Part shown: positions 7,527 through 32,251 of the stretch, piece by piece
Layout: the number at the start of each line of letters is the position of its first letter
Numbering within the stretch: the first letter of the stretch is position 1
Source of the DNA: a bacterium
GTDB taxonomy: Bacteria > Electryoneota > AABM5-125-24 > Hatepunaeales > Hatepunaeaceae
DNA length: 35,857 nucleotides
Reading direction: 5' to 3'
NCBI GenBank assembly: GCA_025774605.1
Contig: JALGVR010000035.1
Span: 1 to 35,857, forward strand
Notes under the pieces: generated by a model
The model's database searches: none
What the model was told of the DNA's origin: nothing
What the model saw: only the letters and a program-made list of their open reading frames with translations
Program-made: the position numbers and the translations under genes

Positions 7527-10500
7527 AGGTTTGCCGTGAATTCGATCAATCCCGTGTTGCGCGGCCGGTTGTCGCCGCGCCACAAGCCGCGGAAATAGGC
7601 TGTGGCTGTGACATTGGCGCCAAGCCTGTAATCCACGCTTAAATCAAGGCTCCAGTTATTCCCGACAACCCAACTCCGCGCGAGGTCGTATCCGGGGAAG
7701 GATGAAGTTGAGGCGAGCCGGCGCCAGCCGCCTTCGATTCGCGCCGCTCCGTCGGATCCGATATACCAGGTCAGGCGCGGCGAGGCGCGCTGTTCTTTGA
7801 CCGTAACGTCCGAGATCCTGTCCGCGCGCCGCTCGAAACCGTACGTCAATCCATACTCGACATTATCATCCGGTCGTCTGAACGTCAGCTTCAGATCACC
7901 CCCCGTGCCGGTCACGTCGGATCTGGCTTCTCCAAGCGTGATGCCGTCTCTTCGGTTACGTTGCCAGGATGGTGCGAGCTGGAGCCTGAAGCCGCCGCCC
8001 GGCTTAAGCCTGACGCGAAACGAAACCCTGTCCAGGGTGGTGGTTTCGCCGCCGCCGGTCTTCCTGTCGCGGTTGATCTCGCGCTGCAGTGACAGTCTGC
8101 CGTCCCCCCCCGGGTTGCCCTCCAGGAAATAGATGTCCTCCAGCCATGATCGGCGGGCGTAGACAGCCTCCCGACCGGCGAATTCAGGCGGATAAAGCAG
8201 AAAAGCGCGCCACGGATCGGTCGATGTTGTGCTCAGATTGGCTTCGAACCTGCTGTTTACTCCTGTAATGCCAAGAGGATATACTTCCTTCTGGTCATTC
8301 CGCCGTCGGCGCGGGCTCCAGTTCAACTGTCCGGCAAAGTACACGCGGCTCACCCGTCGCAACGTGTCGGTCGTCGTCAGATAGAGATTGAAGTCGCCGT
8401 CCGGGTCCGGCACGTAACGATCCCCCTCCCGGCGATAATTGCCCAGCCCTTCACCGACATAGGCGGCGATCTGCGCGCCGGCGCGATCGTTGCCGCTGCT
8501 GAGATTGTAGTCGACCCGCAACTTCCACGGCGAACCGGGAGGCGACACCGTGGTCTCGAACGCCGCCGAGGTGGCGGTGACCGGCGCTTCGCGCGCATCA
8601 GAGTAGGTCTGGTGATACCTGAGCAGATCGATCGACCAGCCTCCCCAGCGATAACCACTGCCGCTCCAGTCCGCAGTCAGCGTGCGCGTGTCGGATCTGT
8701 GGTCAGCCCCGCTATCCGTCAGGGCATCATCACTCCGACTGTTGAAGCCAAGATGGATATCATGTCCGTCACCCGGTTTTATCCCCAGACCGATTTCACG
8801 TTCAAGATACCGGTAGCCTGAATTTGAACCCGATTCACTGACCCTGCGCTCTTCAGACCTTACCGAGCATGATGGCTGAAACGTCTCCCAACTGCTGCTG
8901 ACCCCACCGAACAGACCGGTACGAACGCTCTCCCTGTTTTCGGTGAGATAATCACCTTCCGTCCTGTCGATGCGGGAGGTCAAATCGAGGTGCGGCAGAG
9001 ACAAGCCGCCCGACAGGTCATAGCGCCTCCCTTCAAAGCCCCCGGCGCGCCTCAAAAAACCGGTTGCAGCGGAAAAGCTTGAATTTCCCGTCGGAGTTAA
9101 ATCGAGACCGGCATTATACTCGGTTTCGCTGCGGGTGGTGTCATCTGCGACATCCCAGCGGAACAGGTAATCGACATCCCTGCCGCGCGAGAGGGGATGG
9201 AAGTTTTCGTCCTCGCGGCGAACCGAAGCTGTAACCACGGGGGACAGACCGCCTCGCTGCATCCACGATCCGCGCCAGAGCCAGGCCGCGCCCTTGTTGT
9301 CATGGTCATCCAGATTGGAAAGCGTATTGCGATCGAAACTTGAGAGCGCGATTTCCCCGCCGATTTCCAGCCCGCCGCTGTTGAAGTTCGTTCTGACCGC
9401 GACGATCTCCGCCCTCTCGGGCAGCGGCAGATAACGGACCGGCGCCCAATCGCCCGAATCGGCACTTACCCAGCGATAGTAGAAGGTGTACAATCCGGCG
9501 TCATATTCGCGCCGGTAGCCGCCGCCGGGAAGCTGCGAGAACTCCACCTGCAGATATCCGGTCGGTCGTCCGAGTGAATCGGGTGGAGCGAAGACCAGCA
9601 CGCTGTCCCCGTCAACCACGCCCCAGACATAATCACCCCGACCCGGGCCCAGCGAATCGATGCCTGAAACCAGCGCCCCCAGCGGATCGTCGCCGGCGCC
9701 GGCAACCGCGCCGCGCCATTCATCCGTCCAGTCGAAGGCAAGCGGATTATCGTTGTCGCCACCCTCGACCGCCGCGGTGGCTGCGACCGACAGCCCGGCT
9801 GCGGACTCCCCCGGTGTTCCAGCGGTTGCCGCGTAGAGGTAGCGGGGATATCCTTCGTCGTTGTACTCGTATTCAACCTCGATCCGCGAATCGGAGCGAA
9901 TCGGGCGGCGCGGGTTGAATCTCAGACTCCCACGCGTGTAGTCTACGACATAATCCGCCCTGCCGCCACGTTTTAACCGCTCACCGTCGAGGTAGACCGT
10001 CTCCGATCCGGCTGATATCGTGATCCCCGATCTGCCGAAACGATCGGTGAGATAGTAGGGGCCCTGATCCCCGTCACGGCCGGGGAAATTGACGGTGATG
10101 AAGCTGTTGTTGCCGCCGACTGCAGCCAGTTCGCCGCGCAGAAGCGGACAGCTCGCCCTGAGGCTGCCGCCCTTCAAACTGCGTGAAAATGAACCATATC
10201 GCCCGTTTTCCCAGTCCAGATCAAGGTCGCCGAGACGGGCGAGGAAATGCCTCGCTTCAACCCGGAACAGCAACCGGTCAAGCTCCGCCAGGCTTGCCGA
10301 GGCGCCACCGGATGAGGCGGGCATGTTGCGGTCGTCCAGTACCGCATCCACCCTGATGTCGGAGGTCGGTTCGCCTGACAGCTCCAGGTGAAGCCCGGAA
10401 GTTACTCCGCCGGACCCACCCCGGTCGAATCGCACGCCGCGCGTTATGGTGCCCGTTCGACGCAGTCCCTTCCACGGCTTCAGCGGATTCAGGGGACGAC

Positions 10501-21899: not shown

Positions 21900-22889
21900 C
21901 TATGACTTTTTCACACCCTCCAGCATATCCTTTATCCCGCCGATTGAGCTGAGGACGCCGGTCGCTTCGTAGGGCAGGTAAACCACCTTGTTGTCCTGCC
22001 CGGACACCATTTCCTTCAAGGTTTCAATGTAGCGAACCGCGATCAGGTAGTTCGCCGGATCGCCCTTGGATTCGGCGATGGCTTCGGTGACCCTGTTAAT
22101 GGCTTTCGCTTCCGCGGTGGCGACCTTGACGCGCGCTTCGGCTTGACCTTCCGCGACCAGGATCCTGGCGCGCTTCTCGCCTTCAGCCTTGTTGATCTCC
22201 GACTCGCGGATACCTTCAGCTTCAAGTATTTTCGACCTCTTCAGACCTTCCGCTTCGAGGATCGCCGCACGCCGGTCCCGTTCGGCGCGCATCTGCTTCT
22301 CCATCGCATCCCGGATATCGCGCGGCGGGTTGATGTCCTGCAGCTCGACGCGGTTGACCTTGACGCCCCACTTGTCGGTCGCTTCGTCGAGGATCACACG
22401 CATCTTGGAATTGATGGTGTCGCGTGAGGAGAGCGTGGCGTCAAGCTCCATCTCGCCGATGATGTTCCTCAGGGTCGTCTGGGTGAGCTTCTCGATGGCG
22501 TCGGGGAGATTGGCTATCTCGTAGACGGCCTTGACCGGATCGGTGATCTGAAAGTAGAGCATGGCGTTGATCTCGGTGACGACGTTGTCCTTGGTGATGA
22601 CGTTCTGGCGCGGGAAGTCGTAGACCGTTTCGCGCAGGTCGATCCTCTTGATCCTTCTGCGGACGACTATCTTACGGCCTTCACGGTCCTCGCGGATGTA
22701 GCGCCATTCGATATCGCGCGGCTTGTCGAAGATGGGCCAGATGATGTTGATGCCCGATTGCAGCGTCCGGTTGTATTTACCGAACCGCTCAACCACCACG
22801 GTCTCCGCCTGCTGAACGATAGTAAATCCTTTGGCGACAAAGATTATCACAGAAACAGCAAGCACAATCAATATTGTCAGGAAAGCCAT
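21900..22889 (-). CDS. SPFH/Band 7 (stomatin-like) membrane protein
   Basis: VQQAETVVVERFGKYNRTLQSGINIIWPI, TQTTLRNIIGEMELD, coiled-coil EAEG repeats. Confidence 0.9.
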   Translation of the reverse strand: MAFLTILIVLAVSVIIFVAKGFTIVQQAETVVVERFGKYNRTLQSGINIIWPIFDKPRDIEWRYIREDREGRKIVVRRRIKRIDLRETVYDFPRQNVITKDNVVTEINAMLYFQITDPVKAVYEIANLPDAIEKLTQTTLRNIIGEMELDATLSSRDTINSKMRVILDEATDKWGVKVNRVELQDINPPRDIRDAMEKQMRAERDRRAAILEAEGLKRSKILEAEGIRESEINKAEGEKRARILVAEGQAEARVKVATAEAKAINRVTEAIAESKGDPANYLIAVRYIETLKEMVSGQDNKVVYLPYEATGVLSSIGGIKDMLEGVKKS

Positions 22890-22891
22890 TT

Positions 22892-23344
22892 CTACTCCTC
22901 CTCGGTGGATGACAGCGGTTTAATAATCAGTTTCGTTCCTTCAACCCGAGCGACGACGATCCTTGTATCGGCGGGGATCAGGCTGTTGTCTTCCGTCGCG
23001 CCGCGCCAATTCTCGCCGGCGACGACCACCCTTCCCGCACCCTTCACGGTATCGATCGGCTCGATAACCATCCCCTGTCTCCCGACCAGGGCGTCAACGT
23101 TCGTCCTCACGCCTTCTGCAGCCTTGTAGAAGCGTTTGAGAATGAAGGGACGGATACCGAAGAAGACCACGAGGGTGGCTGTGATAAAGACGATTACCTG
23201 CACGGAAAGACCCGCTCCCAGCAGGGCGAATATCCCGGACGCCAGACAGCCCAGCCCCAGGCAGGCGAGCAGGAAGCCGGGCGTAAAGATCTCCGCCACG
23301 AGCATCACAAAAGCGACGATTATCCAGATCAACCAAGGTTTCAT
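22892..23344 (-). CDS. NfeD-like membrane protein
   Basis: TM-rich N-terminus and C-terminal OB-like domain LVGRQGMVIEPIDTVKGAGRVVVAGENWRG; directly upstream of the SPFH gene. Confidence 0.85.
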   Translation of the reverse strand: MKPWLIWIIVAFVMLVAEIFTPGFLLACLGLGCLASGIFALLGAGLSVQVIVFITATLVVFFGIRPFILKRFYKAAEGVRTNVDALVGRQGMVIEPIDTVKGAGRVVVAGENWRGATEDNSLIPADTRIVVARVEGTKLIIKPLSSTEEE

Positions 23345-25725: not shown

Positions 25726-26994
25726 CTATCCGATCGTGCTCCTCACCATTTGTGCATCGATCTTCAACGACTTCCAGACCTCATCCAGATCAATGCCCTC
25801 GATTCCCAGCGCTTTCAGCGATATCCGACTGGGATCGTCGGGCACGGTGTTGCCGCTTTTGCCGATCTTGTTCCAGTGGCAAAAGATATTCGCCAGGTGC
25901 GCCAGGTGAACCTCCTTCTCCTCAATGCCGGCTTGCTCAGGCGTATGATGATACTTGATGGCATTTACCAAAGGTATCGGGAGATTCCAACTGTCCGCCA
26001 CCATGGCGCCCACTTCTCCATGCTCGATATCGGCGAGTTCAAGTGAGACGTGATGCAGCGGCTGCTTGCGCCGCGCGGCTTCCGCCAAAATCCGGTAGAA
26101 CACATCCCGGAAATGCTGACGCATCGCCACCTTGCCGAAATCGTGCAGAAGTCCGACCACGAAGGCGTCCTTGGATATAACTTCGTCCGTGTATCGGCTC
26201 AAGGCGCGGGCTATGTATGCCGAACCGATGGAATGCAGCCAGAATTTATCCCTGTCAAACAGGAAATTCCTTCCATTCTCGCAAAAATGCAGCAGGCTCG
26301 CCGCCAGCGCAATGTTCACCACCTCGTCGAAGCCCATAACCACGATGGCGTGATCGATGTTGCCGATCTGGCGGTGAAAGCCGTAAAAGGCGCTGTTGAC
26401 AATCTGTAATATCTTCGCCGTGAGCGATTGATCCCTCTTAACCTCCTCGGCAAGGTTCTTGGCTGACGAGTGCGGATCATTGCTGATCGCCAGGATCGAT
26501 TTGGCAAGGGCGGAGAGCGGTGCGAGCGAATCGATTCTGCTTAACTTGGCGCGGATCTCGGACGGGTTGATTATGGTGGAGTCTTTCTTCTTTCCTCCAC
26601 CGCTGGGAAAGATTTCCGCTATGGTTCTGCTGAGTAGAATCTGGCTTAACGGTTTGGTCAGGATATTGTTCGCCCCGAGATTTTTCGCCTGCACGGATAA
26701 CCTGGCTGAGATCTCATCAAGGCAGACTATGACCGGTATCTCCTTCCAGGTGGTACGGGTTCTGATCGCCTGCAGGAGCTCCGCGGCCGTGAGATGTTCA
26801 AGTGTCCAGTCGGTTATGATCAGGTCCGGCTGATCCTGCGAAATGTGCTGAATTGCCGCCCGCACGTCAACCACCGGCACGACCAGGCAATCCCTGATCC
26901 GGTTGAGCATCTGGCTCGTCTGCTTAAGCTGCAGGACCGACCTGCTTGCCAGTAATATCTTCAGCCTCTTTCCGCCGTTGAAATCCGTGGACAT
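25726..26994 (-). CDS. Response-regulator-like REC domain fused to HDOD domain (cassette 1)
   Basis: REC: PDLIITDWTLEHLTAAELLQAIR...GANNILTKPLS; HDOD: DQSLTAKILQIVNSAFYGFHRQIGNIDHAIVVMGFDEVVNIALA...VGLLHDFGKVAMRQHF. Confidence 0.88.
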   Translation of the reverse strand: MSTDFNGGKRLKILLASRSVLQLKQTSQMLNRIRDCLVVPVVDVRAAIQHISQDQPDLIITDWTLEHLTAAELLQAIRTRTTWKEIPVIVCLDEISARLSVQAKNLGANNILTKPLSQILLSRTIAEIFPSGGGKKKDSTIINPSEIRAKLSRIDSLAPLSALAKSILAISNDPHSSAKNLAEEVKRDQSLTAKILQIVNSAFYGFHRQIGNIDHAIVVMGFDEVVNIALAASLLHFCENGRNFLFDRDKFWLHSIGSAYIARALSRYTDEVISKDAFVVGLLHDFGKVAMRQHFRDVFYRILAEAARRKQPLHHVSLELADIEHGEVGAMVADSWNLPIPLVNAIKYHHTPEQAGIEEKEVHLAHLANIFCHWNKIGKSGNTVPDDPSRISLKALGIEGIDLDEVWKSLKIDAQMVRSTIG

Positions 26995-28667
26995 TAATCT
27001 ACCTGTTCAACCGGTAACGTGATAAAAAAGGTTGTACCTTCACCGGATTTGGTGTCAAAATGTATTTTTCCTCCATACGGTTCTATGAGCGACAGCGAGG
27101 ATGAAAGACCGAGCCCGCTGCCGGAGATCAATTCAGCCTGTTCATCCTCTTCACTGTTTTTCGTGGTGAAGAACGGTGTGAATATCCTGTCACGGACATC
27201 TTCCGGTATTCCACCGCCCGTGTCGGATATCGCCACAACAATATCCCCGCTCTTCTCCCTGTATTCAGTTCGAATTCCCAAGACCTTCCTGGGGCTGTTT
27301 CGCATGGCGTCCAGGGCGTTGTAAACGATGTTCATGATGGCCTGGGAAAAATCTCCGTATATACCCTTGACCGGCGGCAGCTTTTTATCGAATTCATATC
27401 TCTTCTCCACCTGATTCTTGAAGTACGCATTGGCATTGAGGAAGGTCAATTCGCAATTCAGCAGTTCGTTCAGATTGATGTTCACCCGCTTCGTGTTGCG
27501 TTCACGGCGCACCTTGTCCAGAAGGTTATTGATGATTTCCGTTATATTCCTGGTTGATTGTTCAATCGCCTCCAGCCCCGGCAGTTCCATCCCCTTCAGT
27601 TTCAGGATTTCCAGGTGTCCCATGGCGACGTGAACCGGATTCTGCAGGTTATGCACAATCCCCGAAACATAGAGCCCGAGTTGAGACAGCTCTCTCTGCC
27701 GCATCAGCTTCATGCGCATCTCCATCTCGAGCTTCTCCCTTTCGCCGCGCCTCTTTTCAGTAACGTCATGCATGTACAACCGGACAACGGCGATCCCCCC
27801 GTCCTGCCGCAGTCGCACATTTCCGGACAGCTCGAGCTCAAGCAGTCCTCCGTCACCTGATTTCACGTTCATATCAATATTATTGACCGCCTGCCCTTCG
27901 ATTAAACGCAGCCAACTGGAATAAAATGAATCACCGCCATCTTCTTTCAACAGATTCTCGATGTGGTCTCCGCGCGGATCGCACTGAATCTTCAATTTCT
28001 CCTTGAACATCCGGTTACAGTCCTTGATCAATCCTTCCGGAAACACCGAGACAACCATGTCCGATGAATTCTCGAAGAGGTCCTTGAACTCCTCTTCAGA
28101 GTTGAGCAGTCTCGTGTAGAGCATACGGTTGCGCGCCCCCGCCAACACCAGTCCGCCGATGGTATCGAGCAGTCGATTGGTCTTTTTATGTGACAGGCGG
28201 ATCACCGGATCGATCAGGGTGAAAGCGCCAATGTGGTCGTCATCGCCTTTGATCGGCAGCGCGGCAAGCCTCACTTTCTGCAGCGCATCCGAACCCCATA
28301 TCTTTATTATCTCCTCGTCCTCGACCTCTTCGACGTAGAACGGTTTTATCTGCTCCTCCACCCAATCCAGGATTCCCGCCCGCGAGCGGGGGATGAAATC
28401 CGTAACGGGACTGAAACTTCCGTACCGATTCGCCCATGAATCGAGTATCCAGCCGCTTGGTTCACGGTGCCGAAGCCAGAAGAAGGCACAAATCGACGCC
28501 TTGAAGATATTGGCAAAACTCGAACAGACCTGCGAGAAGTAATCCGGTTCATTCAGGTTCCTGACAATCGCTTCAGCCACCAGCCGGACCACGGACATCT
28601 GGTAGGTTTTAGCCTCGTTGTCCTTGGTCAGGGACTCTATCAGCTCACGATAGTTCGAGTTTTCCAA
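26994..28667 (-). CDS. GAF-PAS sensor histidine kinase (cassette 1)
   Basis: TTG start with AGGAG upstream; H-box GLYVSGIVHNLQNPVHVAMGHLEIL; N-box DFSQAIMNIVYNALDAMR; G-boxes ISDTGGGIPEDV, GSGLGLSSSLSLIEPYGG; TAATG overlap with REC-HDOD gene. Confidence 0.9.
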   Translation of the reverse strand: MENSNYRELIESLTKDNEAKTYQMSVVRLVAEAIVRNLNEPDYFSQVCSSFANIFKASICAFFWLRHREPSGWILDSWANRYGSFSPVTDFIPRSRAGILDWVEEQIKPFYVEEVEDEEIIKIWGSDALQKVRLAALPIKGDDDHIGAFTLIDPVIRLSHKKTNRLLDTIGGLVLAGARNRMLYTRLLNSEEEFKDLFENSSDMVVSVFPEGLIKDCNRMFKEKLKIQCDPRGDHIENLLKEDGGDSFYSSWLRLIEGQAVNNIDMNVKSGDGGLLELELSGNVRLRQDGGIAVVRLYMHDVTEKRRGEREKLEMEMRMKLMRQRELSQLGLYVSGIVHNLQNPVHVAMGHLEILKLKGMELPGLEAIEQSTRNITEIINNLLDKVRRERNTKRVNINLNELLNCELTFLNANAYFKNQVEKRYEFDKKLPPVKGIYGDFSQAIMNIVYNALDAMRNSPRKVLGIRTEYREKSGDIVVAISDTGGGIPEDVRDRIFTPFFTTKNSEEDEQAELISGSGLGLSSSLSLIEPYGGKIHFDTKSGEGTTFFITLPVEQVD

Positions 28668-28770
28668 GACTCGATTCTCCTGTTGAAAATCACTGCGACA
28701 TCCCGATGTTTTCTTTCATGCCTCAATCCTCTGAGGAAGTTTGAGTGTTGTCAGAAGCTCAATATCAACA

Positions 28771-28790
28771 TACTCTACCACCATGGAGTA
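28771..28790. promoter_or_regulatory. Palindrome copy 1, TACTCTACCACCATGGAGTA
   Basis: Inverted repeat, same family as three other copies. Confidence 0.7.
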
Positions 28791-28860
28791 ACCTTAAAAT
28801 TTCGCACAAAATGTCCATCCAATAAAGGCTTGTGGTCAACGAGGGAAATTAATCTGTGTT

Positions 28861-28880
28861 TACTCTATTACTATAGAGTA
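28861..28880. promoter_or_regulatory. Palindrome copy 2, TACTCTATTACTATAGAGTA
   Basis: Perfect 7-bp arms with 6-bp spacer. Confidence 0.8.
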
Positions 28881-28955
28881 ACCCTGAATTATCCCCAAAA
28901 AATACCTTCTGTTGGAAGGAGCGAAATAAATCGGTCTGGATCTGATCCCAAATAT

Positions 28956-28975
28956 TACTCTATGGTCGTAGAGTG
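28956..28975. promoter_or_regulatory. Palindrome copy 3, TACTCTATGGTCGTAGAGTG
   Basis: Same family; sits 12 bp downstream of the -10 of the predicted promoter. Confidence 0.8.
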
Positions 28976-28987
28976 ATACTTGGTTCG

Positions 28988-29016
28988 AATATACGATTTT
29001 ATCTCGGCTTTGTCAA
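28988..29016 (-). promoter_or_regulatory. Sigma70-type promoter for cassette 1, TTGACA-N17-TATATT
   Basis: Minus strand TTGACAAAGCCGAGATAAAATCGTATATT; -35 at 29011-29016, -10 at 28988-28993. Confidence 0.75.
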
Positions 29017-29055
29017 GAGAAAAATCACGGTTTATCACTTAAACTGGGCAAACGG

Positions 29056-30312
29056 TTATTCCAGGATATCCCTTAGATGCATTGGATCCATTTTCAACGA
29101 CTGCCAGAATTCATCCAGTTGATCTTCCTTAATGCCAAGCCTCAGCAGTGAGAGATAATTCGGTTCGTCAGCAACGCTGTTGCCGCTCTCGCCGATTTTG
29201 TATCGATGACAGAAGAAATTTGCCAGGTGTGCCACATCGATCTCCCGACCGTCCTTATCAACCGACTCAGGGCGGTGGTGATAACGGATCGCCCTGACCA
29301 GCGGAAGGGGCAGCTTCCAGCTCTCAGCGACCATTCCGCCTATCTCGGCGTGATCGGTACCGGTGAGCTCGCGGCAGACCTCGTGCAGCGGTCGTTGTTG
29401 ATCCTCCGCCGTCTTAATCATATGGTGAAATTCCTCCCTGAAGTGCTGATTAAGAACCACCTTTCCGAAATCGTGCAGTAAGCCCATCACAAAGGCATCC
29501 CTGGGGGACAGATCGTTTAACCGCTTGCTCAGGGCGCGAGCGATATGGGCAGTTCCCAGCGAATGGCCCCAGAATTCCTTCCGGTTGAGAGCGCTGTCAT
29601 CCTCCGTATCGAATGCCTCCATCAGACACACAACTTGGGCGATGTTCATGATCTCATCGAAACCGAGCACGACGATGGCGCGATCGACATTCCCGATCTC
29701 GCGGTGGAACCCGTAATAGGCAGAGTTGGCTATCTTCAGTATCCTGGCCGTGATCGATTGGTCCTTCTTGATCTCTCCGGCGAGATCGCGAGCCGATGAA
29801 TTGGGGTCCTTGAGCAGGTCCATAATCTTGGCGGCAAGGGAGGGCAGGGGTGCAAGGAGGTGTATCTGCTCAAGTTTTGCCTTTATCTTCCTGTAATCAA
29901 ACGGGGTATTGCCTTTCACCTGCCGTCTTGAGACCGGGAAAAATCCTGCCAATATCCTGCTGAGGGCGTTCTGGTTTAATGGTTTGAACAGAACCTGCGC
30001 CGCGCCCAGAGTCAATGCCTGTTCCGTTAAGTCCCGATCGGATTCATCGAGGGTGATTAAAACCGGAATACGTTTCCAATCATCATTCGTTCTCATAGCC
30101 TGAAGCAGGTCGGATGCAGTATGTGACTCAAGTTGCCAGTCCGCGATAACCAGGTCCGGTTTATACTGGATGAAATATCGTAAGGATTTGTGAACACTGT
30201 CCTTGTGTTCGATCTCACAAGGTCGGATTCGTTGCAGCATCAGGCAGGTTTCACTCTTGAACACGGTTGACCCGGTTATCAAAAGTACTTTCAATCTTTC
30301 AGAATGATTCAT
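29056..30312 (-). CDS. REC-HDOD protein (cassette 2 paralogue)
   Basis: REC: PDLVIADWQLESHTASDLLQAMR...AAQVLFKPLN; HDOD: DQSITARILKIANSAYYGFHREIGNVDRAIVVLGFDEIMNIAQ...MGLLHDFGKVVLNQHF. Confidence 0.88.
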   Translation of the reverse strand: MNHSERLKVLLITGSTVFKSETCLMLQRIRPCEIEHKDSVHKSLRYFIQYKPDLVIADWQLESHTASDLLQAMRTNDDWKRIPVLITLDESDRDLTEQALTLGAAQVLFKPLNQNALSRILAGFFPVSRRQVKGNTPFDYRKIKAKLEQIHLLAPLPSLAAKIMDLLKDPNSSARDLAGEIKKDQSITARILKIANSAYYGFHREIGNVDRAIVVLGFDEIMNIAQVVCLMEAFDTEDDSALNRKEFWGHSLGTAHIARALSKRLNDLSPRDAFVMGLLHDFGKVVLNQHFREEFHHMIKTAEDQQRPLHEVCRELTGTDHAEIGGMVAESWKLPLPLVRAIRYHHRPESVDKDGREIDVAHLANFFCHRYKIGESGNSVADEPNYLSLLRLGIKEDQLDEFWQSLKMDPMHLRDILE

Positions 30313-32000
30313 GATTTCCTTGCCTTCCTGCCCTTTGCTGTCACCTTGAAGGTAATATAAAAGGTTGTACCCTCACCGGGGATTGATTCATAGCTTATGG
30401 ACCCCTGATAAGGCTCCAGCAGGGATCTGGCGCTGGACAATCCCAGGCCGCTGCCGGAGGATAATCCATTCTTGGCGTCTTCGGAGCCTCCCTTGGTGGT
30501 GAAGAACGGTTCGAAGATCCTGTCGCCGACATCTTGCGCAACTCCCGGTCCGCTATCCGAAATGGATAACCTGACCTCACCCTGTCCGCTGTCGAACTCG
30601 GTCCGAATGGTCAGTTGCCTGTGCATGCTCCCCTTCATCGCATCGAGGGCATTGTAGACGATGTTCATGATCGCCTGGGAAAAATCGCCGTACAGTCCCT
30701 TCAACTTCGGCAGGTTGTCGGCAAAGTGAAATTCCTTCTTGACATCATGTTTGTAGAACATATTGGCTTCAAGGAACTTCAACTCGCTCTGAAGCAGCCA
30801 GTTCAGGTCAACATCTGTCGGTTTGGTGTTTCTCTCCCGACTGATCTTATCGAGCAGGTTCCCGACGATTCCGGTGATATTGTTAGTGTGTTCTTCAATT
30901 ATTCCAACCTCGGGAGAATCGACACCCTTCTTTTTAAGTAAGGTGAGATGTCCCTGGATGATATGGATCGGATTCTGCAGATTGTGCGCAATTCCGGTCA
31001 CATAGAGACCCACCTGGGCGAGCTCCCGCTGTCGCATCAGTTTCACCTTCATTTCGAGCTCGCGGCTTAACCGTTCATTACGGCGTTTCTCCGTCACGTC
31101 GCGAAGGTAGAGCCTTATGAAACCGACACTGCCGTTTGTCTGGAAATTGACATTGCCGGACAGCTCGGTTTCTATGTATTTTCCGTTTTTACCCTTGAGC
31201 AGCACATCGACGTTCTGTACTTCCTCACCCTTAATCAGCTTCGCCCAGCATCTGCTGAAATTGCCGCCCGGTTCCTCCTTGATCAAATCGGTAAAAATGT
31301 TGTCGGACGAATCGCCTTTAACCCCCAACTTCTTTCTGAACGCCTGATTGCAATCCCTGATAACCCCGTCCGGGAACACCACCACCGCCATGTCGGATGC
31401 GTTTTCGAACAGGTCGTAAAACGCCTCTTTTGCATCGTGCAATCCCTTGTAGAGGACGCGATTGTTGAATCCCGACTTGATCAGGCTGCTCAATATGTGA
31501 ATAAACCGGATGATGTTCTTGCTTGACATGTGCATGATCGGGTCGATAAGGACGATTGCACCCATTTTAAGATCGTCGAAGTTGACCGGTATCAGGGCGA
31601 ATCTCACCTTGTCAGGCACGTTTGGTCCCCAGAATCTGATGGCCGGGTCGTCCTCAACATTTTCAAGGTAGAGTGGATTGTCGCGCTGACGGACCCATTC
31701 CAGCAATCCCTCTTCATGCTCGGGAAGCAGGTCGGATACAGGATACAGACCGCTCGAGCCGCCCGCCCAAGCCTCCAGCCACCAGCCCGACGGCTCCCGG
31801 CGTCGAAACTGAAACAGCGCACAGACGGATGCTTCAAATATCTGCAGAAAATCGGAGCAGAGCCTGGTGAAATAGCCTGTGTCCTGCAATCCACTGACCA
31901 CAGACTCCGCCACCAGGCGGACTATCGACATCTGGTAAAGGTTTTCCTCGTTTTCCCTGGTGAGGGCGTCAATTATTTTGCGTAGGTTCTCACTTTCCAA
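30309..32000 (-). CDS. GAF-PAS sensor histidine kinase (cassette 2 paralogue)
   Basis: TTG start; H-box GLYVTGIAHNLQNPIHIIQGHLTLL; DFSQAIMNIVYNALDAMK; ISDSGPGVAQDV; GSGLGLSSARSLLEPYQG; ATGA overlap with REC-HDOD gene. Confidence 0.9.
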   Translation of the reverse strand: MESENLRKIIDALTRENEENLYQMSIVRLVAESVVSGLQDTGYFTRLCSDFLQIFEASVCALFQFRRREPSGWWLEAWAGGSSGLYPVSDLLPEHEEGLLEWVRQRDNPLYLENVEDDPAIRFWGPNVPDKVRFALIPVNFDDLKMGAIVLIDPIMHMSSKNIIRFIHILSSLIKSGFNNRVLYKGLHDAKEAFYDLFENASDMAVVVFPDGVIRDCNQAFRKKLGVKGDSSDNIFTDLIKEEPGGNFSRCWAKLIKGEEVQNVDVLLKGKNGKYIETELSGNVNFQTNGSVGFIRLYLRDVTEKRRNERLSRELEMKVKLMRQRELAQVGLYVTGIAHNLQNPIHIIQGHLTLLKKKGVDSPEVGIIEEHTNNITGIVGNLLDKISRERNTKPTDVDLNWLLQSELKFLEANMFYKHDVKKEFHFADNLPKLKGLYGDFSQAIMNIVYNALDAMKGSMHRQLTIRTEFDSGQGEVRLSISDSGPGVAQDVGDRIFEPFFTTKGGSEDAKNGLSSGSGLGLSSARSLLEPYQGSISYESIPGEGTTFYITFKVTAKGRKARKS

Positions 32001-32191: not shown

Positions 32192-32211
32192 TACTCTATG
32201 GTTATAGAGTG
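32192..32211. promoter_or_regulatory. Palindrome copy 4, TACTCTATGGTTATAGAGTG
   Basis: 18/20 identical to copy 3; 11 bp downstream of the predicted -10. Confidence 0.8.
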
Positions 32212-32222
32212 CTTTTGGAAAG

Positions 32223-32251
32223 AATATATGCAATCAATATTATTTTGTCAA
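32223..32251 (-). promoter_or_regulatory. Sigma70-type promoter for cassette 2, TTGACA-N17-TATATT
   Basis: Minus strand TTGACAAAATAATATTGATTGCATATATT; -35 at 32246-32251, -10 at 32223-32228. Confidence 0.75.

Follow-up and report, generated by a model that had tools for sequence, protein, structure and literature searches.

Tandem histidine kinase and pseudo-receiver-HDOD cassettes sharing a promoter-dyad element with type IV pilus genes

Can a histidine kinase still signal to an operon partner whose receiver domain has lost most of its active site, and what would such a pair control? The question is raised by a contig of 35,857 nucleotides (JALGVR010000035.1, here called the window) from a bacterium of the Hatepunaeaceae (assembly GCA_025774605.1; 2.83 Mb in 175 contigs; contig C132 of genome G000 in our set), which carries two adjacent cassettes, each encoding a GAF-PAS histidine kinase (HK) and a protein that joins a receiver (REC) to an HDOD domain. 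A preliminary description of this DNA read the cassettes as parallel two-component inputs to a non-transcriptional output. The observation of two tandem HK and REC-HDOD pairs is confirmed and the interpretation is partly supported. Three features had been overlooked: active-site residues are missing from both receivers, both cassettes carry their own copy of a shared promoter-dyad element, and type IV pilus genes elsewhere in the genome are preceded by that element too.

At the level of sequence, the locus combines a duplication, degenerate receivers and H-boxes, retained HDOD ligands, and a promoter-dyad common to both cassettes, a pilus operon and a prepilin gene. From these we infer how the module would signal and which regulator would bind its promoters. 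Our best explanation, toward which we lean without holding it probable, is a duplicated, probably phosphotransfer-poor HK/pseudo-receiver-HDOD module co-expressed with a type IV pilus regulon through a small MerR-type protein (mini-MerR).

Duplicated cassettes and their active sites

Four open reading frames (ORFs) make up the cassettes (Table 1). Pfam assigns GAF_2 (a weak match), PAS, HisKA and HATPase_c to both kinases, and Response_reg and HDOD to both partners. HK1 and HK2 align without gaps over 553 aa at 51% identity, and REC-HDOD1 and REC-HDOD2 over 417 aa, also gap-free, at 48%; both values are far above chance. As the preliminary description had it, gene and domain order match, both kinases start at TTG, both gene pairs overlap (by ATGA or TAATG), both kinases carry the H-box HNLQNP and the block DFSQAIMNIVYNALDAM, and the outputs are HDOD, not DNA-binding, domains. 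The two motifs have the same residue numbers in HK1 and HK2 (339-344 and 439-455). Its picture of paralogous pairs with diverged sensors stands as to the duplication, but the divergence is only mild: identity is 42% in GAF and 47% in PAS, compared with about 60% in the kinase core. Between the partners, the receiver (45%) is less conserved than the HDOD domain (54%).

An alignment of 11 family receivers with one canonical receiver places T13-G14 of REC-HDOD1 and S17-R18 of REC-HDOD2 at the Asp-Asp (DD) position, and L88 and L92 at the Thr position; the phospho-acceptor Asp (D58, D62) and the Lys (K110, K114) are kept. From the canonical set of DD, D, T/S and K, both copies therefore lack DD and T/S. 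A pseudo-receiver has been defined as a PF00072 domain missing any one of five conserved residues (PMC12632262); both receivers match Response_reg (PF00072) above cut-off with three of the five absent, and are thus pseudo-receivers under this definition. Across the family, Glu replaces the phospho-Asp in 8 of the 11 receivers, three of them with an operon-paired HK. An AlphaFold2 model of REC-HDOD1 (pLDDT 69 overall) is usable for the HDOD half only; its receiver part, although of low confidence, still alternates beta strands and alpha helices as receivers do.

The kinases are altered as well. HNLQNP has Asn in place of the acid that follows the His, departing from the HisKA rule H-E/D-x-x-T/N, and retains Asn at the phosphatase-linked H+4 position. 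The acidic residue was needed for autophosphorylation in four mutated HisKA kinases, and Thr or Asn at H+4 serves phosphatase activity (PMC3510030). The source genome has 16 HisKA matches with 15 readable H-boxes (six H-E, five H-D, one H-S, one H-Q and two H-N); the two H-N boxes are the window copies, and 11 of the 13 others carry an acid. The same H-N pattern recurs in the partner kinases of relatives G002, G003 and G023. The N, G1, F and G2 boxes of the HATPase are intact in both kinases (HATPase_c E about 3e-21), which speaks against simple decay, and the kinases may retain an altered yet working activity. The AlphaFold2 model of HK1, built from a two-row alignment (pLDDT 38), gives no basis for a sensor fold. 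The phosphotransfer from HK to REC that had been assumed thus finds no support in the active-site residues, with neither DD nor Thr/Ser in the receivers and no acid in the H-box (PMC12632262, PMC3510030). On residues the cassette falls outside the canonical two-component class, though it may still act like a member.

The output domains are better preserved. PF08668 scores 207 and 180 bits against a gathering threshold of 22.9, and Pfam HD is also above cut-off (E 2e-11). Aligned with 3hc1, the HDOD half of REC-HDOD1 keeps the metal-ligand positions H250, H280-D281, H321 and H345-H346, with Asn365 at the last (Asp) position, where the complete ligand set of an HD-GYP protein or active HD phosphohydrolase would have Asp; the closest solved structures found with Foldseek are 3m1t and 3hc1 (both E 2e-11) and SadB. 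HDOD proteins are recurrently tied to motility and attachment (PMC6543031, PMC11004494). Their mechanism is not established (PMC6543031), in agreement with the earlier remark that it is poorly defined.

HK1, HK2 and the G003 kinase form one clade (100/99) whose inner branching is unresolved, with G002 apart. In the HDOD tree, HDOD1, HDOD2, the G003 domain and an HDOD-only protein of G008 likewise group together (98/97), again apart from G002; branching inside this clade is weak, with HDOD2 outside the rest at 88/82. Neither set of paralogues is split between unrelated clades. These placements date the duplication to the ancestor shared by G000, G003 and G008, or close to it, and together with the common promoter element they indicate that the entire cassette was duplicated; one copy was possibly lost in G003 and G008.

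G002 and G003 hold a single HK and REC-HDOD pair at the syntenic place, which is flanked by 2-oxoacid:ferredoxin oxidoreductase-like genes on one side and xanthine dehydrogenase-like genes on the other (by eye from sequence). G008 has a lone HDOD domain there, without receiver or kinase (G008:C32; L121 6910-7749), and G023 and G016 each carry a pair at another location. The G016 kinase (L036 6763-8823) keeps the GAF-PAS sensor half, joined to an HDFNN-type kinase module that has a C-terminal receiver of its own; its gene adjoins that of the pseudo-receiver-HDOD protein, leaving sensor half and partner together despite the swapped kinase module. Orphan REC-HDOD paralogues number two in G000 (C171, C167) and one each in G002 (C97), G003 (C228) and G008 (C82). 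No second tandem pair was seen in the relatives examined, which hold one pair at the same place plus orphans, and the idea of recurrent tandem duplication was dropped.

By eye, the gene cluster around one orphan paralogue (L117 in G000:C167, L119 in G003:C228) is conserved and also encodes M16-like peptidases, an RND/MMPL-like transporter and a LolA-like protein. A contig search with HDOD1 as query matched only distant CheD-HDOD-like fusions; in HDOD proteins of other bacteria (L001, L002, L003) an apparent fusion to an N-terminal CheD-like domain is seen by eye.

A promoter-dyad element and the type IV pilus genes

Each cassette is preceded by a predicted promoter and, 3' of it, a dyad of 7-4-7 geometry with the consensus ACTCTAY-NRCC-ATAGAGT, with one copy ahead of HK1 and three ahead of HK2. 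None of the window shuffles reached four matches to ACTCTA-N6-TAGAGT, and a scan of the source genome found six exact matches, every one upstream of a gene. The promoter-dyad targets in this genome are HK1, HK2, a pilus operon (ExeA-like ATPase, PilM/N, PilO, a T2SSB-like protein and secretin), a prepilin gene (MKLSNLRDNSGFTIIELIAVIIVIGIL; element at G000:C123:1039, L077) and two secreted-protein genes (elements at G000:C173:28296 and 39447, L032). One of these secreted proteins has HYDIN/VesB-like Ig, NIDO and FG-GAP domains and is possibly an adhesin. Fifteen promoter-dyad units in seven genomes share TTGAC(A), a spacer of 17 bp (18 in one unit), a single orientation, and a dyad 8-14 nt downstream of the -10; the G002 cassette has two dyads.

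The first gene of the pilus operon in 7 of nine family genomes encodes a MerR-type protein of about 77 aa, the mini-MerR, which consists of the DNA-binding domain only (L030, G000:C25, about 8126-8356, minus strand; also L068, L069, L070, L071, L072 and L073), and overlaps the ExeA-like ATPase gene. It matches MerR_1 (E 4e-12), as expected of a MerR winged helix-turn-helix (wHTH) domain; the top NCBIfam match, CadR-PbrR, is below cut-off. Dyad and mini-MerR occur together in these seven genomes, and both are absent in the other two (G001, G006).

Proteobacterial MerR sites have 7-4-7 geometry, and the ZntR consensus has ACTCT...AGAGT ends (PMC1526738); a literature search for a lead-regulator operator sequence yielded no paper. 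The mini-MerR resembles the MerR metal regulators (CadR/PbrR, ZntR) in its MerR_1 match and in the MerR-like palindrome (PMC1526738), whose ends are those of the ZntR consensus. It differs in being only the DNA-binding half, in the 17 bp spacer with the dyad 3' of the -10, and in a putative regulon of pili and signalling rather than metal resistance.

Table 1. Coordinates of the cassettes and their upstream elements in the window.
Feature	Position	Strand	Basis
HK1, GAF-PAS-HisKA-HATPase histidine kinase, TTG start	30309..32000	-	ORF, Pfam; H-box HNLQNP at 30986-30969
REC-HDOD1, pseudo-receiver and HDOD, partner of HK1	29056..30312	-	ORF, Pfam, alignment
HK2, paralogue of HK1, TTG start	26994..28667	-	ORF, Pfam; H-box HNLQNP at 27653-27636
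REC-HDOD2, paralogue of REC-HDOD1, pseudo-receiver	25726..26994	-	ORF, Pfam, alignment
ATGA overlap, HK1 stop and REC-HDOD1 start	30309..30312	-	
TAATG overlap, HK2 stop and REC-HDOD2 start	26992..26996	-	
Predicted promoter of cassette 1, TTGACA-N17-TATATT, with 7-4-7 dyad ACTCTATAACCATAGAGT at 32210-32193	32193..32251	-	
Predicted promoter of cassette 2, TTGACA-N17-TATATT, with dyad ACTCTACGACCATAGAGT at 28974-28957	28957..29016	-	
Cassette 2, second dyad ACTCTATAGTAATAGAGT	28862..28879	-	
Cassette 2, third dyad ACTCCATGGTGGTAGAGT, one mismatch	28772..28789	-	

Elsewhere in the window (21900-23344, minus strand), SPFH/stomatin-like and NfeD-like genes, assigned by eye, lie next to each other.

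Signalling mode and regulator

In the preferred explanation, the soluble kinase would pick up a cytoplasmic signal through its GAF and PAS domains. Transmission to the pseudo-receiver would rely mainly on protein contact that depends on ATP or on the signal, instead of canonical His-to-Asp transfer. The HDOD output would then act post-transcriptionally on pilus or surface behaviour. The mini-MerR would bind the dyad just downstream of the -10 and most likely repress the promoters until pili are made; a dyad 3' of the -10 with a normal 17-bp spacer argues for repression rather than MerR-style activation. A stricter form, which we regard as somewhat unlikely, is a dedicated pseudo-two-component system. 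In it, a kinase poor in autophosphorylation would signal by contact only with a pseudo-receiver whose attached, metal-binding HDOD domain may be active, and the unit, present in duplicate, would be joined with the pilus genes in one regulon by an effector-less mini-MerR.

Several points weigh against the preferred explanation. Some kinase lineages may tolerate Asn after the phospho-His. Residual or non-canonical phosphorylation is conceivable, since the window receivers retain Asp58/62 and Lys110/114. The tie between HDOD output and pili is our own supposition, and co-regulation does not hold throughout, since the G003 cassette lacks a dyad. Known MerR sites lie within a promoter spacer of 19-20 bp (PMC1526738, PMC9909328), unlike this dyad, which lies outside a spacer of 17-18 bp and downstream of the -10; binding by the mini-MerR is for this reason only a guess from linkage and geometry.

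The preliminary description's model of an ordinary two-component pair, in which HK autophosphorylates on H339 and then phosphorylates D58/D62 of REC-HDOD, other residues hold Mg2+ and the two copies serve parallel inputs, appears rather improbable. The retained H339, ATP-binding boxes, Asp and Lys, along with overlapping genes that were duplicated together, fit it. It has to contend with the loss of both DD acids and the Thr from both receivers, the Glu at the phospho-site in most family receivers (including three with an operon-paired HK), and an H-box lacking the acid required for autokinase activity in tested HisKA kinases (PMC3510030). We give little credence to a kinase that is mainly a phosphatase, or serves another, canonical response regulator while the pseudo-receiver-HDOD protein modulates the kinase or competes for binding to the kinase, a role suggested for CmrT with CmrS/CmrR: no canonical response regulator adjoins any pair, even though the phosphatase-specific Asn at H+4 is retained (PMC3510030), the kinase of G016 has a receiver of its own, and pseudo-receivers acting on partner kinases have been discussed (PMC12632262). 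Decay of the cassette under relaxed selection would account for the less conserved receivers, the lost catalytic residues and the HDOD remnant at the syntenic place in G008; given four intact ORFs, gap-free alignments, invariant ATP-binding boxes and HDOD ligands, and retained promoters and dyads, it is very improbable.

A separate alternative concerns the regulator. If the dyad formed a hairpin at the 5' end of the RNA, or were bound by some regulator different from the mini-MerR, the link to pili would hold and only the regulator would be misidentified. The dyad's constant orientation, its asymmetric centre (NRCC) and its location at the predicted transcript 5' end agree with this. Differences in the stem, however, are one-sided, without compensatory changes, position 7 is often a C.A mismatch, and an Rfam search of the element gave no match; an RNA element was set aside on the Rfam result and the absence of compensatory changes. 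The co-occurrence of dyad and mini-MerR in 7/7 genomes, and the absence of the dyad from 2/2 family genomes without mini-MerR, also count against this alternative, which we consider unlikely.

Relation to known systems and significance

Among the closest parallels are atypical regulators such as FrzS and CmrT, in whose receivers conserved residues of the active site are likewise missing; a connection to type IV pili exists for FrzS as well, and CmrT lies in an operon with a sensor kinase (PMC12632262). The cassettes differ in forming a dedicated two-gene kinase/pseudo-receiver unit that has no neighbouring canonical receiver, and in the altered H-box of the kinase. The output shares the HDOD fold with GsmR of Xanthomonas campestris, DVU0330 of Desulfovibrio vulgaris, SadB of Pseudomonas and PDB 3hc1. 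In GsmR the active-site His is missing (PMC4114195), whereas the present proteins retain most HD metal-ligand positions; a further difference from these named proteins is the degenerate receiver, paired in its operon with a kinase of variant H-box.

How pseudo-receivers switch has been called a mystery, and 2 of 20 characterised atypical regulators are non-orphan (PMC12632262). The interest of the locus comes from this rarity of kinase-paired pseudo-receivers among studied systems, the present pairs being known from sequence alone. With two natural operon-paired kinase/pseudo-receiver-HDOD couples, and relatives whose phospho-site residue is D or E, pseudo-receiver switching and HDOD mechanism become directly testable, and the common operator hints at where the phenotype may lie: in type IV pili and surface behaviour.
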